DNA from: Gemmatimonadota bacterium
GTDB lineage: Bacteria; Gemmatimonadota; Gemmatimonadetes; Gemmatimonadales; Gemmatimonadaceae
DNA: 36,418 bases
Direction of reading: 5' to 3'
Assembly: GCA_003171215.1 (NCBI GenBank)
Contig: PMYN01000078.1
Location: 2,452 to 38,869 of the forward strand
Shown: in pieces, positions 5,874 to 10,672 of the stretch
How positions within the stretch are numbered: the first letter of the stretch is position 1
How the letters are laid out: every line of letters begins with the position of its first letter
Translations under genes and position numbers: made by a program
Notes under the pieces: model-generated
What the model saw: the letters and a program-made list of their open reading frames with translations, nothing else
What the model was told of the DNA's origin: nothing
Database searches by the model: none

Positions 5874-6826
5874 GTGGACTTCGGATGACCGGGCTTCTCG
5901 CGCTGGCCGCGGTGACCGCGTGCGGCGCGACGAGCGACAAGCCGGCCGCGGCGACTCGGGCGTCGAACGAGTTCAACGCCGACTCGGCGATGAGCTACAT
6001 CCGCCAGCAGCTCGCGTTCGGTCCGCGCGTGCCGGGCACCGAGCCCGCTCGGAAGACCGGCGACTGGATCGTCGCGCACCTGCACCGGACGGCCGACACG
6101 GTGCTCGAGCAGCGATGGACGCACACGCTGGCGAATGGGAAGCCGCTGCCGATGCGGAATATCTTCGCGCGCTTCAAGCCGAACGCGAAGGAGCGCATTC
6201 TCTACATCACGCACTGGGATACGCGACCGGTGGCCGACATGGAGTCCGATCCGGTAAGGGCGGGGATGCCGATCCCGGGTGCGAACGACGGCGCGAGCGG
6301 TGTCGCCTTGCTGCTGGCGGTCTCGGACGCGTTGAAGAAGGCGCCGCCGGGTATGGGCGTCGATCTCCTGTTCGTTGACGGCGAGGACTGGGGCACGTTC
6401 ACGCCGGACGTGGACGTGCTGATCGGCGCGAGCTACTTCGCCCAGCACCTGCCGAGCGCGGATTACCGGCCGCTGTTCGGCGTGCTGTGGGACATGATCG
6501 GCGACGCGGATCTCAACATCTATCAGGAAGTGAACTCGGCGCAGGCGGCGCCCGAGGTGGTGCAGAAGGTGTGGGGGCTCGCCAAGGACATGGGATACGA
6601 GAAGTATTTCATTCCGGAGGCGAAGGAGCCGATCACGGACGATCACGTGCCGTTGATCAAGGCCGGGCTGCGCGTGATCGACGTGATCGACATCGACTAC
6701 GGGCCTCGCAACGCATCAGGGGTCGTCACGACGAGCTATCACCACACGCTCGACGACACGATCGACAAGGTCTCGGCGAAGTCGATGAAGATCGTGGGGG
6801 ACGTGGCGGTGGCGTTGTTGCGGTAG
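5870..6826 (+). CDS. M28-family glutaminyl-peptide cyclotransferase-like lipoprotein
   Basis: A 318-residue protein. The ATG at 5870 overlaps the sprA stop and has a strong ribosome site (GGGGGAG, 5858-5864). A lipoprotein signal is visible: hydrophobic residues 8-17 and lipobox V15-T16-A17-C18. The rest is a single M28 zinc-peptidase fold. HWDTRP at 115-120 and GANDGASGVA at 138-147 supply the first metal ligand (D140). DGEDWG at 170-175 supplies E172 and DDHVPL at 257-262 supplies H259. The D/E/H set and the DDHVPL context match animal-type glutaminyl cyclases (QC), which convert N-terminal Gln to pyroglutamate, better than M28 aminopeptidases, which normally bind two zinc ions. Co-translation with sprA suggests a role in maturing exported proteins in the periplasm. 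An aminopeptidase activity cannot be excluded from sequence alone. Confidence 0.85.
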   Translation: MSGLRMTGLLALAAVTACGATSDKPAAATRASNEFNADSAMSYIRQQLAFGPRVPGTEPARKTGDWIVAHLHRTADTVLEQRWTHTLANGKPLPMRNIFARFKPNAKERILYITHWDTRPVADMESDPVRAGMPIPGANDGASGVALLLAVSDALKKAPPGMGVDLLFVDGEDWGTFTPDVDVLIGASYFAQHLPSADYRPLFGVLWDMIGDADLNIYQEVNSAQAAPEVVQKVWGLAKDMGYEKYFIPEAKEPITDDHVPLIKAGLRVIDVIDIDYGPRNASGVVTTSYHHTLDDTIDKVSAKSMKIVGDVAVALLR

Positions 6827-6855
6827 CGCTGCGATGAATTGGTGACGCTTGTCGG

Positions 6856-6872
6856 CGTTCGTGATGCGAACG
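6856..6872. other. small hairpin between the M28 gene and intI
   Basis: CGTTCG (6856-6861) and CGAACG (6867-6872) pair across a 5-base loop and can be extended by one G-U pair. It sits in the 53-base gap before the integrase. There is no U-run, so a Rho-independent terminator is unlikely. It could affect integrase translation. Confidence 0.35.
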
Positions 6873-6895
6873 TCGAACGATGCGAATTGTCGAAC
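6863..6895. repeat. imperfect tandem repeat across the intI start codon
   Basis: GATGCGAACGTCGAAC (6863-6878) is followed directly by GATGCGAATTGTCGAAC (6879-6895). The integrase ATG (6880) lies inside the second copy. No clear ribosome site precedes it, so the exact integrase start is not certain. Confidence 0.5.
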
Positions 6896-7887
6896 CACCC
6901 CATTCGGTTGTGGCTGCGGCCGGTCCGGTCTCGTTGATCGGACAAGTGCGTCGGCGGATGCGAGCGCGGCATCTCAGTCCTCGCACTGAAGAAGCGTATG
7001 TGATGTGGATCAAGCGATTCGTTCGGTTTAGCGGAACGAAACACCCGTCGCTGCTTGGCGAGCCGGAAGTGACCGCGTTCTTGACGCATCTCGCCGTGAC
7101 GGAGCGCGTGGCGGCGTCGACCCAATCGCAGGCGCTCGCGGCGATCTTGTTTCTTTATCGTGATGTGTTGCGAGCTCCCCTGTCGTGGCTGCACTCCATC
7201 GTGCGGAGCAAGCGACCGGCGCGGTTGCCGACGGTCCTGACACGCGATGACGCGCGCGCAGTGATCGCAGTGATGCGCGGCGTTCCAAGGTTGGCAGCGC
7301 TGGTGATGTACGGAGCCGGGCTGCGCTTGATGGAAGCGCTCACGCTGCGCGTGAAGGATCTCGACTTGGATCGGCTCGTGGTGACTGTGCGAAGCGGGAA
7401 GGGAGGGCGCGACCGCGTTTCAGTGTTGCCTCGGAGCGCCGTGATGGCCCTCGGAGTTCATCTCGAGGAAATGCGCGAGCAGCACCGCAATGATCTTCGA
7501 AGCGGTGCCGGGTTTGTCGAGCTGCCCGACGCTCTGGCGCGCAAGATTCCGGCGGCCCGGCGCGCGTGGGAGTGGCAGTGGGTCTTTCCCGCCACGCGTA
7601 CGTACAAGGATTCCAAAACGGGTGAGATGCGGCGACATCATCTTCATGAAACCGTTCTCCAGCGCGCCGTGACCGAGGCCGGCCACCGTGCGCGAATCGC
7701 CAAGCGCGTCACCTGTCATGCGTTCCGTCACTCGTTCGCGACGCACCTCCTCGAGGACGGCTACGACATCCGAACGATTCAGGAACTGATGGGGCATCGT
7801 GACGTCAGCACGACGATGATCTACACGCACGTCCTGAATCGCGGCGGTCGCGTGGTCACCAGTCCCGCCGACAAGTTCGGCTCCTGA
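6880..7887 (+). CDS. intI: integron integrase (tyrosine recombinase, IntI family)
   Basis: 335 residues. The N-terminal SAM-like DNA-binding domain (about 17-105) has the IntI pattern VRRRMRARHLSPRTEEAYV. The catalytic domain carries the full tyrosine-recombinase set: R149 (GAGLRLMEAL), K174 (SGKGGRDR), H280 and R283 (HAFRHSFATHLL), H306 (MGHRD) and Y315 (MIYTHV). The IntI-specific insertion that separates integron integrases from XerC/XerD is present at about 219-237 (KIPAARRAWEWQWVFPA). The enzyme recombines folded single-stranded attC sites with double-stranded attI. No frameshift or missing catalytic residue is seen, so it should be active. Its orientation is unusual: the cassettes lie beyond its 3' end and read the same way, instead of diverging from its 5' end. 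No ribosome site is obvious before ATG 6880, and no recognised LexA box was found. Confidence 0.93.
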   Translation: MRIVEPPHSVVAAAGPVSLIGQVRRRMRARHLSPRTEEAYVMWIKRFVRFSGTKHPSLLGEPEVTAFLTHLAVTERVAASTQSQALAAILFLYRDVLRAPLSWLHSIVRSKRPARLPTVLTRDDARAVIAVMRGVPRLAALVMYGAGLRLMEALTLRVKDLDLDRLVVTVRSGKGGRDRVSVLPRSAVMALGVHLEEMREQHRNDLRSGAGFVELPDALARKIPAARRAWEWQWVFPATRTYKDSKTGEMRRHHLHETVLQRAVTEAGHRARIAKRVTCHAFRHSFATHLLEDGYDIRTIQELMGHRDVSTTMIYTHVLNRGGRVVTSPADKFGS

Positions 7888-8142
7888 CGACTGGCACAAG
7901 AATAGTTGTCACGCTCGGCTTCGATTCTCCGTTGGAGCACCCTCTGCACCTTAATCATCAACACACAGTCTTATGCGACTGCCGCGAGACAAAGCCGTTG
8001 AAGTCGGCGATGGCGCGATTCCGTCGAACCTGAGTTGCTACAGAGAGTCATGCAATTTCGAATTCTCGCCGAACCGAGAAGAAGACGATAGAGTTCGATT
8101 GAGTCGTGTTTCTAGGCTGTATAACAACTCAGCCTAATTCTC
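7888..8142 (+). other. attI-side region of the integron, non-coding
   Basis: About 255 bases with no credible open frame and base composition clearly richer in A/T than the flanking chromosome. It links the integrase stop to the first recombination core site and contains the candidate cassette promoter. Shifts in composition of this kind are usual around integron attI sites. Confidence 0.5.
8099..8125 (+). promoter_or_regulatory. candidate cassette promoter (Pc)
   Basis: TTGAGT (8099-8104) and TATAAC (8120-8125) are separated by 15 bases. The -10 matches the consensus at five of six positions; the spacing is shorter than the ideal 17. It lies about 20 bases before the attI core and points into the first cassette, where an integron Pc is expected. 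Confidence 0.35.
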
Positions 8143-8149
8143 GTTAGGC
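8132..8149 (+). other. attI core recombination site
   Basis: The core GTTAGGC (8143-8149) fits the integron consensus GTTRRRY. GCCTAA (8132-8137) and TTAGGC (8144-8149) form an inverted repeat around a 6-base spacer, similar to the CCTAA...TTAGG arrangement at the end of attI1. The crossover point would lie between G8143 and T8144. Cassette 1 starts immediately after it, which supports attI rather than a chance match. Confidence 0.65.
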
Positions 8150-8173
8150 GGCGGTGGAACCGTAGGAGCGACA

Positions 8174-8659
8174 ATGACTGATACTCTGCGTCGTCAGTGG
8201 GCGCGCGTTCGCTCCGGTGCTCTGGTTATTGCCTGCTCCGACGGGCGGCTGCAAGAGGCCACGGACGCGTTTCTCGCCGACGAACTTGGACTCACAGAAT
8301 ACGACCGCTTGTACATGCCCGGCGGCGGCGGCGCACTGGCCGCCAGCGGCCGTGACTTCCTCCGCGCTCAACAGCTACGCCGCGAGTGTCATTATCTCGT
8401 GGAACTCCACCACGTCGACCGAGTCCTGCTCCTCTTTCACGGACCGAGCACTGATGGGCCGGCGGATGCCACGTGTGCCGACTATCGCCGCAAGCTCTCC
8501 GGTGCCTCAGCAGCTGTCATTCGCGCACGGCAGGTGCGCGACGCCTCGGAGCTCATGGAGCGGCGTGATGAGTGGGCCGGGCCCGCCGCCGTGTCAGCCT
8601 ATTGGTGCGAGGTCGGCCCTACGCTTCGGATCACGTTTCGCGCAATGGAGCCGGGATAA
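8174..8659 (+). CDS. cassette 1 protein, beta-carbonic-anhydrase-like
   Basis: 161 residues, with a ribosome site GGAG (8164-8167) 6 bases before ATG. No signal peptide or membrane segment is seen. The early motif CSDGR (C21, D23, R25) matches the C-x-D-x-R zinc/dyad motif of beta-carbonic anhydrases. A Gly-rich turn (MPGGGGALA, 48-56) sits where the family has its R-x-A-G-G segment. A strand followed by LLLFHG supplies H89. In typical beta-carbonic anhydrases the last ligand follows as H-x2-C; here the next Cys is C101, 12 residues after H89. The protein is therefore a divergent member of the fold, and carbonic anhydrase activity is not assured. It lies between attI and an attC, in the cassette direction, and is an integron cassette gene. 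The specific function is unknown. Confidence 0.6.
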   Translation: MTDTLRRQWARVRSGALVIACSDGRLQEATDAFLADELGLTEYDRLYMPGGGGALAASGRDFLRAQQLRRECHYLVELHHVDRVLLLFHGPSTDGPADATCADYRRKLSGASAAVIRARQVRDASELMERRDEWAGPAAVSAYWCEVGPTLRITFRAMEPG

Positions 8660-8694
8660 GGCGATGGCTAACGAGCGAAAGTGCGCGCGTCGCC

Positions 8695-8807
8695 ACCTAA
8701 CCCGCGCTTGAAGCCGACGCCGCAAACTCTATGCGGATGGCGCCGCCGCGATGCGCGCGCTGGCGCTCTGTTAAAATGCGGCGCAGCTTAAGCGCAATCC
8801 GTTGGGC
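8695..8807 (+). other. attC site of cassette 1
   Basis: R'' is ACCTAAC (8695-8701) and R' is GTTGGGC (8801-8807), both fitting the RYYYAAC/GTTRRRY consensus. The inner boxes pair as GCGCTTgAAGC (L'') with GCTTAAGCGC (L'), leaving one unpaired G. That extrahelical base is the hallmark that sets strand choice by IntI. The total is 113 bases with an imperfectly paired middle. Crossover would be between G8801 and T8802. Confidence 0.85.
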
Positions 8808-8843
8808 GGACCACCGTCTGTTGTGCTACGCGATGGAGAGACC

Positions 8844-9446
8844 ATGAGGACGTTCGACCATCGTGCCCCTAGCTACGATCGCAGCATCCGCCAAAGGCTT
8901 GTCTTCGGGCCCGTCCATGATGCCGTGCTGAACGCCTTCACTGCGGCAGGCGGCACACCTCAGGATGTCCTCGATGTTGGTTGCGGGACTGGCCGCTTGC
9001 TTGAAGCTGCCGCTGACCGCTGGAGTCGAGCACAAATGACGGGCGTCGACGTGTCGGCAAAGATGATCATCGAGGCGCAGCGGAAGCACGAGGGAGATCC
9101 CCGCTTCAGCTTCAAGCAGGGAGATGCGTCTGCGTTGCCGTTTGGGGCTGCCTCCTTCGACGCCGCATTCAGTACCATGTCCCTTCATCATTGGGGGGAG
9201 CAAGTCTCCGGCATCCGCGAGGTTGCGCGAGTGCTGCGCCCTGGCGGGCTATTCGTGCTAGCGGACGTAGATGCTCCATTCATCTTCGTGATTGGCCCGC
9301 TCTTCAACTGGATCGATGGCTCGCGGTTCCGGGCGCCGGAGGACATCCGACGCCTCCTCGAAGGCGCCGGCTTGTCGGTTGTAGGATTTCGTCGTTTCTG
9401 GCCGCTTTCACGAGCCCAGCTCTTCGTCTCCCGCAAAAAGGACTGA
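8844..9446 (+). CDS. cassette 2 protein, class I SAM-dependent methyltransferase
   Basis: 200 residues. The ATG at 8844 has a good ribosome site (GGAGAG, 8835-8840); the in-frame TTG at 8802 is part of the attC core and is not a likely start. A single Methyltransf_11/UbiE-like domain is seen. Motif I is VLDVGCGTGRLLEAA (about 42-56), the motif II acidic residue is in GVDVSAKM, and QGDASALPF is the adenine-contact motif. Next come FSTMSLHHW and EVARVLRPGGLFVLADVD. The N-terminal FDHRAPSYDRSI is typical of small-molecule methyltransferases of the ubiquinone/menaquinone and malonyl-ACP type. The substrate is not evident. Its place between two attC sites marks it as a cassette gene, so it is mobile and expressed from the integron or its own promoter. 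Confidence 0.85.
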   Translation: MRTFDHRAPSYDRSIRQRLVFGPVHDAVLNAFTAAGGTPQDVLDVGCGTGRLLEAAADRWSRAQMTGVDVSAKMIIEAQRKHEGDPRFSFKQGDASALPFGAASFDAAFSTMSLHHWGEQVSGIREVARVLRPGGLFVLADVDAPFIFVIGPLFNWIDGSRFRAPEDIRRLLEGAGLSVVGFRRFWPLSRAQLFVSRKKD

Positions 9447-9490
9447 TCCCGACGTGCTCCGGGGTGTGAACCAAACGGCGGGAATTGGCC

Positions 9491-9553
9491 GCCCAACCCG
9501 GCGTTGAACCCGACGGCGCTTGCGCGCCGCGGGTTAATGCCAAATCGTTCGGC
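9491..9553 (+). other. attC site of cassette 2, with an imperfect R' core
   Basis: R'' is GCCCAAC (9491-9497). L'' (GCGTTgAACCCG) pairs with L' (CGGGTTAATGC), again with one extrahelical G, and the apical stem GGCGC...GCGCC closes a short loop. The R' site would be GTTCGGC (9547-9553), which has C at the fourth position, where consensus wants a purine. The total is 63 bases, a usual length for attC. The damaged core lies exactly where the array ends. Confidence 0.75.
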
Positions 9554-9625
9554 ACCGTGCAGTTCATGCGCGAGGCCGACGGTCAATGGAAGTACGTCGT
9601 CGACGTCGGCAGCGACCGCCCGTAG
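9554..9625 (+). pseudogene. truncated 3' end of a gene abutting the last attC
   Basis: An open frame without its own start runs out of the attC into FMREADGQWKYVVDVGSDRP and a TAG at 9623-9625. Coding-like composition and the pattern W-K-Y-V-V-D-V-G resemble the last strand of SnoaL/DUF4440-type proteins. The upstream part of the gene is missing and is replaced by the attC, which suggests a deletion or an off-target recombination. The family assignment is tentative. Confidence 0.4.
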
Positions 9626-9712
9626 CATCGTAGTGTCGCGGGAATGACTGGCCATCGCGCGCTCCGCTCCAGACGTAGCGCGGAATGGATTGTCGCGACT
9701 TACAAAACGCTT

Positions 9713-10672
9713 CTAGTGACACTTCCCGCCGCTCGGATCCCACACCCGGCCGTTCGTCTCGATCCACGCGGACCGGTATTCACCGCCGCCGAGGGTCAGC
9801 ACCAGCACACCAAAGCGGCCTTCGAGACGGTAATCACTGTTGCGGATCTTCTTGCCGCCGAATCCGCGTAGTTCCTCACCGCCGGTGCCCACGACGATCT
9901 CCGGTATTCCGCGCAGCGTATCGGGCAGTCCCGCCGGAGTCTGCGGGAGGAATCGCTCGTAGTCGTGATCGTGGCCGTTCAGGACCAGATCGACGTTCGC
10001 ATCATAGAGGATTTGCCAGATCGGCTGAAAGCGCGCGTCGCTTCCGTGCCAACCCGAACTGAAGCGCGGCTCGTGCCAGTATGCGATGGTGCATGGCTTC
10101 GGCTTGTCTTTGAGATCCTTCTTCAGCCAGTCTTCCTGCGCCTTGCGGTCGAGATCGCTGAACTCGCTCCGCACGACGATTTCGCTGTTGAGCACGACCA
10201 CGTGCCAGGTGCCTACTTCGTAGCTGTAGTATCCGGCGCCGGCGGCGCCGGCCTTGTCGCCGAAATAGGCGAAGTACGGGTTGGCCGCCTTGCTGAGATA
10301 ATCGTGGTTGCCGGGGGTAGGGTGCAGCTTGTTCATGATGCCCCGATTCGGATTGCCCCACGTCGAGCCGAAGCAATTCGCGAACTGCTTCGCTGTGCCC
10401 TCCTGATATGCGTTGTCACCGAGCGTGAATACCGCATCGGTCACTTTCGCCGCGCTGTCTGCCTTGAGAATGCTGTCCACCAGCATCGCTGTCTTGTCAT
10501 CGCCGCCGGCGTCGCATCCGGCAATGTCGCCGACGCCCATGAGTACGGACGCTCCGGCGAGCTTGACCACCGCGGCCGGCGCAGCCGCAGGTGGCGGCGT
10601 GACTTGAATCGCCGGAGTGCATCCGAGCGCCGCCACCAGCGCACCAACGATGACACGGAGGGCGAGTCGCAT
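9713..10672 (-). CDS. lipoprotein metallophosphoesterase, purple-acid-phosphatase-like
   Basis: 319 residues, last gene of a three-gene minus-strand operon; its ATG (10672) follows the upstream stop by 2 bases. The leader has hydrophobic residues 7-17 and a lipobox-like A-L-G-C18, so it is probably membrane-anchored outside the cytoplasm. The calcineurin-like metal motifs appear in order: GDIAG, GDNAYQEG, GNHDY, YWHEPRFSSG and NGHDHDYERF. The GDNAY and WHEPR forms are typical of the purple acid phosphatase/alkaline phosphatase D-like branch. The substrate is not evident; a phosphomonoester or phosphodiester on a surface component is the simplest guess. As I recall them, several Bacteroidetes proteins of about 1,200 residues join such a domain to a barrel protein like the product of the neighbouring gene. 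Confidence 0.85.
   Translation of the reverse strand: MRLALRVIVGALVAALGCTPAIQVTPPPAAAPAAVVKLAGASVLMGVGDIAGCDAGGDDKTAMLVDSILKADSAAKVTDAVFTLGDNAYQEGTAKQFANCFGSTWGNPNRGIMNKLHPTPGNHDYLSKAANPYFAYFGDKAGAAGAGYYSYEVGTWHVVVLNSEIVVRSEFSDLDRKAQEDWLKKDLKDKPKPCTIAYWHEPRFSSGWHGSDARFQPIWQILYDANVDLVLNGHDHDYERFLPQTPAGLPDTLRGIPEIVVGTGGEELRGFGGKKIRNSDYRLEGRFGVLVLTLGGGEYRSAWIETNGRVWDPSGGKCH

Follow-up and report, generated by a model that had tools for sequence, protein, structure and literature searches.

A complete and probably functional reverse integron on the chromosome of a Gemmatimonadota bacterium

Can an integrase gene followed, on its own strand, by an attI-like core and two cassettes form a complete integron, and is such a layout an accident of one genome or a trait that comes with the integrase? 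The question was raised by an earlier note on a stretch of 36,418 nucleotides from a Gemmatimonadota genome (assembly GCA_003171215.1, contig PMYN01000078.1, positions 2,452 to 38,869), hereafter the window, in which positions 6880-9625 were read as a complete small integron whose integrase gene, intI, points the same way as its cassettes. Our analysis bore out this reading, with coordinates accurate to about 70 bp: within the window, 6880-9553 holds a complete integron made of intI, an attI core and two cassettes each ended by an attC site, all on the + strand. On the strength of its sequence, the locus is very likely a complete chromosomal integron that is probably functional and belongs to the reverse (inverted-integrase) type. 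Its cassettes lie 3' of intI and point the same way, and its IntI falls within the reverse-integron side of the integrase tree. The locus is thus a further member of the reverse integrons already described, and an ordinary one for its phylum. The genome (4.14 Mb in 162 contigs, the window being part of contig C96) has only one intI, that of the window.

The identity of the integrase is carried by profiles, motifs and structural similarity. Its score of 140 bits against the XerC profile (cut-off 335) and of 134 bits against XerD (cut-off 330) leaves it far under both, compared with 425 bits for the integron integrase family. The catalytic motifs are present, namely GLRLMEAL (residues 147-154), GKGGRDR (173-179), TCHAFRHSF (278-286), LMGHRDV (303-309) and MIYTHVL (313-319). 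The best solved-structure match is Vibrio IntI4 (2a3v), with which the IntI-specific segment LPDALARKIPAARRAWEWQWVFP (residues 215-237) aligns with a sole gap of one residue. The motifs, the TIGR02249 profile and the 2a3v alignment together confirmed that the integrase has all its catalytic residues and the IntI-specific insertion, as had been claimed. The grouping of the protein with IntI or with XerC/D had been proposed as a check; both the scores and the tree designated an IntI, and an XerC/D identity was rejected.

The recombination sites were recovered with models independent of the window. An attI profile, trained on the post-intI sequence of 45 other loci and with a consensus of about GCAGTCTAATACTCGTTAGGC, gave its top score in the window to a core located 255 bp downstream of the intI stop codon (27.3, against 10.9 for the runner-up on either strand), in agreement with the attI-like core that had been noticed after the 3' end of intI. 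More generally, 43 of 59 sequences covering up to 450 bp downstream of the intI stop scored above 11 bits with this profile, as did none of the 59 on the 5' side of the gene; in the nearest relatives, G027 and G263, attI likewise lies 3' of intI. For the attC sites, a covariance model (R1) was built from 32 attCs, all from other genomes and none from the window, with 91.5% of cells paired and a covariation of 0.462, versus 0.142 when shuffled and at most 0.097 for slid versions. Searched through the 36 kb of the window at E-values up to 10, R1 matched attC1 and attC2 only, on the + strand (50.7 and 37.5 bits), so that the candidates passed the covariance check that had been called for. An independent pattern scan, based on R''/R' boxes that flank a paired stem, scored the same two sites at 18.5 and 17.5, the maximum over ten shuffled windows being 14.5. 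With lower scores in shuffled windows and R1 E-values of 9.6e-12 and 4.5e-8, chance palindromes were rejected. Applied to the surroundings of intI at 60 further Gemmatimonadota loci, the scan found 89 more sites, including 86 located 3' of intI. Extrahelical bases in the left arm are an established mark of attC direction; such extra unpaired bases occur in 87 of the 88 sites lying 3' of intI, the window's two counted. The R1 matches and these left-arm bases uphold the claim of two forward cassettes with recognisable attC sites. In addition, both attCs form the expected stem, with folding-energy z values of -3.0 for the short attC2 versus -1.6 for attC1; since only attC2 stands clear of the shuffles, folding energy by itself is weak evidence. 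The placement of the attI and attC boxes defines the predicted junctions G8143/T8144, G8801/T8802 and G9547/T9548 (table).

Features of the integron and its borders in the window (positions count from the first letter of the window).
Feature	Position	Strand	Basis and details
GAATTGGTGACGC-type element; putative promoter element of intI or left edge of the platform	6832..6844	+	within the 53 bp that separate intI from the M28 peptidase stop
intI, integron integrase, 335 aa, intact open reading frame (ORF)	6880..7887	+	TIGR02249 425 bits (cut-off 265); 2a3v E 1.2e-82; motifs
attI core GCCTAATTCTCGTTAGGC	8129..8153	+	profile score 27.3; R box GTTAGGC 8143-8149; predicted exchange G8143/T8144
Cassette 1, 658 bp between junctions	8144..8801	+	attI R box to attC1 R' box
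Cassette 1 gene, 161 aa, distantly like putative carbonic anhydrase (Pro_CA_2)	8174..8659	+	25.9 bits, under the Pfam cut-off of 30
attC1, 113 nt	8695..8807	+	R'' ACCTAAC, R' GTTGGGC; R1 50.7 bits, E 9.6e-12; two extra left-arm bases
Cassette 2, 746 bp between junctions	8802..9547	+	attC1 to attC2 R' boxes
Cassette 2 gene, class I SAM-dependent methyltransferase, roughly 200 aa counted from the ATG	8844..9446	+	Methyltransf_25 E 1.1e-26
attC2, 63 nt	9491..9553	+	R'' GCCCAAC, R' GTTCGGC; R1 37.5 bits, E 4.5e-8; two extra left-arm bases
last 25 codons and stop codon of a truncated gene, starting exactly at the distal junction; array end	9548..9625	+	in-frame likeness to an ORF of G397

At the scale of the phylum, intI was found in 144 of the 395 Gemmatimonadota genomes sampled, throughout the phylum. 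Among the loci where the model was able to place attC sites, hereafter scorable loci, 32 of 33 (the window counted) have them 3' of intI and in the same direction. The same-direction layout also occurs at 21 loci of other phyla or of unnamed origin, including Chlorobiaceae, Cyanobium/Synechococcus and Acidobacteria, and the classical layout was encountered outside the phylum in Shewanella, Marinicella, Lysobacter, a Spartobacteria locus and an Argoarchaeum locus. Furthermore, intI genes within 1.5 kb of a contig start number 39 on the minus strand versus 2 on the plus strand, a bias that would be expected if assemblies are broken by arrays lying 3' of intI. In the integrase tree, a single branch (support 94/88) parts 44 same-direction rows from 9 classical ones; a layout-separating branch was present in 93% of bootstrap trees, and equal clustering was obtained in none of 500 shuffles. 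The integrase of the window groups with those of G027 and G263, two species of the same genus (100/98), on a side of the tree shared by the same-direction Chlorobiaceae and Synechococcus/Cyanobium loci. The attribution to the inverted-integrase clade was thus supported, the integrase siding with same-direction loci from the sort of taxa beside which Treponema IntI has been placed (PMC3607928), with the caveat that within Gemmatimonadota this layout is the norm.

Two loci depart from the general picture. Among the scorable loci of the phylum, the sole classical layout was observed at L126 (G346:C347), with attCs 5' of intI and on the opposite strand; its integrase falls outside the same-direction clade, and a separate acquisition of this integron is suggested. 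In an Aminicenantes contig (L110, DRHQ01000047.1), attCs flank intI on both sides, each oriented as its side predicts.

The two cassette genes have a restricted distribution. Homologues of the cassette 1 gene occur patchily in 11 of 179 genomes of the family (E 1e-10), none of which, at this threshold, belongs to the genus of the window, and the cassette 2 gene has no homologue at E 1e-30 among the 178 other genomes of the family. A genome from another genus (L224, G031:C36) carries a gene 81% identical to that of cassette 1, with a TGA within the match and an adjoining attC; judged by its sequence, it is the same cassette gene in a second array context. Beyond the distal junction, 9548-9625 resembles the C-terminus of a 323-aa ORF in G397 (L222, 584-1555), the common end motif being SGSDRP/VGSDRP. 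Elsewhere in the same genome (G000), at least seven more attCs without intI lie on contigs C118, C101, C3 and C56 (L184-L187; best 150 candidates scored), representing either attC clusters or broken array ends.

On its left, the integron is flanked by a large SprA-like gene and a gene for an M28 peptidase; collinearity of this flank with G258 (83%) and G027 (78%) reaches the M28 stop (to 6828) and ends there. On the right, a metallophosphoesterase gene lies on the opposite strand, with collinearity to G395 from 9714 and to G307 (95%) from 9930, the G307 contig terminating inside the phosphoesterase gene. An empty site, with left and right flanks joined, was found in none of the relatives compared, and intI sits elsewhere in G027 and G263; the platform therefore occupies a lineage-specific spot beside a truncated gene.

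Several observations weigh against a complete and working reverse integron. The array is a short one, abutting the truncated gene distally; the R' box of attC2 (GTTCGGC) is one base off GTTRRRY; no consensus promoter was found on the + strand of 6700-9750, where the sigma-70 consensus may not suit the phylum; and the integrase tree was built from a set without Treponema sequences. The mere two cassettes, the position of the distal end and the single off-consensus base would also befit a relic, with sites and integrase still recognisable on a platform that no longer recombines and two genes now fixed in the chromosome. We regard this as improbable, since intI is open with every motif in place, the scores of attI, attC1 and attC2 resemble those in longer arrays, and both cassette genes are missing from the rest of the genus, fitting recent capture.

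Could the layout instead result from a classical integron whose intI was flipped in this single genome, by a local inversion or an assembly error? The existence of one classical Gemmatimonadota locus, L126, lends this some substance, but that locus stands outside the same-direction clade, attI is conserved 3' of intI in the phylum (G027 and G263 included), and the layout is common to 32 loci within the phylum and 21 from outside it, for which one change on the integrase tree suffices; a flip is thus highly improbable. Still less credence, indeed next to none, can be given to an XerC/D-like recombinase beside chance palindromes: the general tyrosine recombinase fold is what the protein shares with that family, whereas the match to the integron family, the Xer scores far below cut-off, the tree placement and the attC E-values from an independent model all contradict it. 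The reverse integron is therefore the reading that we retain.

In such an integron, following known integron chemistry, IntI would join the folded attC bottom strand of a circular cassette to the double-stranded attI at G/TTAGGC. New cassettes would enter beside attI, at 8143/8144, and could be excised by attC x attC recombination. The layout was presumably inherited along with the integrase, from a lineage extending across Gemmatimonadota, Chlorobiota, Cyanobacteriota, Acidobacteriota and others, and the position between the M28 peptidase and metallophosphoesterase genes is peculiar to this lineage.

The transcription of the cassettes would most likely start from the intI side, through its own promoter or by read-through. 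The + strand of 6700-9750 contains no terminator-like site, and no conserved -35/-10 was found ahead of attI across 42 loci; with the lack of a consensus promoter, these results make read-through from the intI side possible, and transcription of intI running into the array is plausible on this basis. It is, however, doubtful that reverse integrons of Gemmatimonadota have no separate cassette promoter at all and express their cassettes by intI-side read-through; if they did, integrase and cassette expression would increase jointly, without the competition of classical integrons. Upstream, the element at 6832-6844 is common to G027 (L118), at a near-equal distance from intI and among different neighbour genes, for a chance expectation of 0.03 per 280 nt. 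As a phylum-wide intI promoter, the AATTGGTGACG element was rejected, its good conservation being limited to close relatives. Three patterns of LexA-like boxes were tried near intI, with zero matches. The earlier note had also supposed that read-through could affect attC folding. In classical integrons, cassette transcription crosses the attCs in this direction as well; the reverse layout would therefore add at most more read-through, and no new strand situation.

As an example of the reverse layout the locus is a clean one, with two cassettes. The prevalence of intI across the phylum, with nearly all scorable loci reverse, is a more useful fact than the locus itself, and so large a set allows one to ask why one integrase lineage fixed this layout and how cassette expression is timed. 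Gemmatimonadota have been listed among the integron-bearing phyla in a review (PMC10500605), and no description of integron orientation in this phylum was found in the literature searched, which covered few subscription papers.

Reverse integrons have been described in Treponema denticola and its relatives (PMC3607928, PMC7691350), the Treponema integrases being placed in one cluster with the Kuenenia, Synechococcus, Chlorobium phaeobacteroides and Blastopirellula enzymes (PMC3607928), and inverted-integrase integrons form a sub-clade of the soil/freshwater integrases (PMC8352920). Like the window, the Treponema integrons have an R-box core GTTAGRY after intI and attC-bounded cassettes; unlike them, in another phylum and with long arrays, the window has two cassettes and an integrase of the Gemmatimonadota branch, a comparison made without Treponema sequences. 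The Chlorobiaceae and Synechococcus/Cyanobium loci share with the window attCs 3' of intI on the same strand, the side of the tree and an integrase identity of 52-56%, but their integrases form their own branches, separate from those of Gemmatimonadota. By contrast, class 1 integrons (IntI1) and the Vibrio superintegron (IntI4/IntIA) have in common with the window the integrase family, the attI x attC logic and the cassette structure, and differ by a divergent array 5' of intI, IntI1 being 48.6% identical to the window's integrase; at L190, for instance, a dfrA14 cassette stands ahead of intI1 on the opposite strand. Finally, the integron on plasmid 1 of Gemmatirosa kalamazoonensis (NZ_CP007129.1; L155, G080:C3 848000-866000) resembles that of the window in phylum, layout, attI core and attC type, and differs by its location on a 1.1 Mb plasmid, its at least 16 attCs and an integrase 57.6% identical to the one described here.
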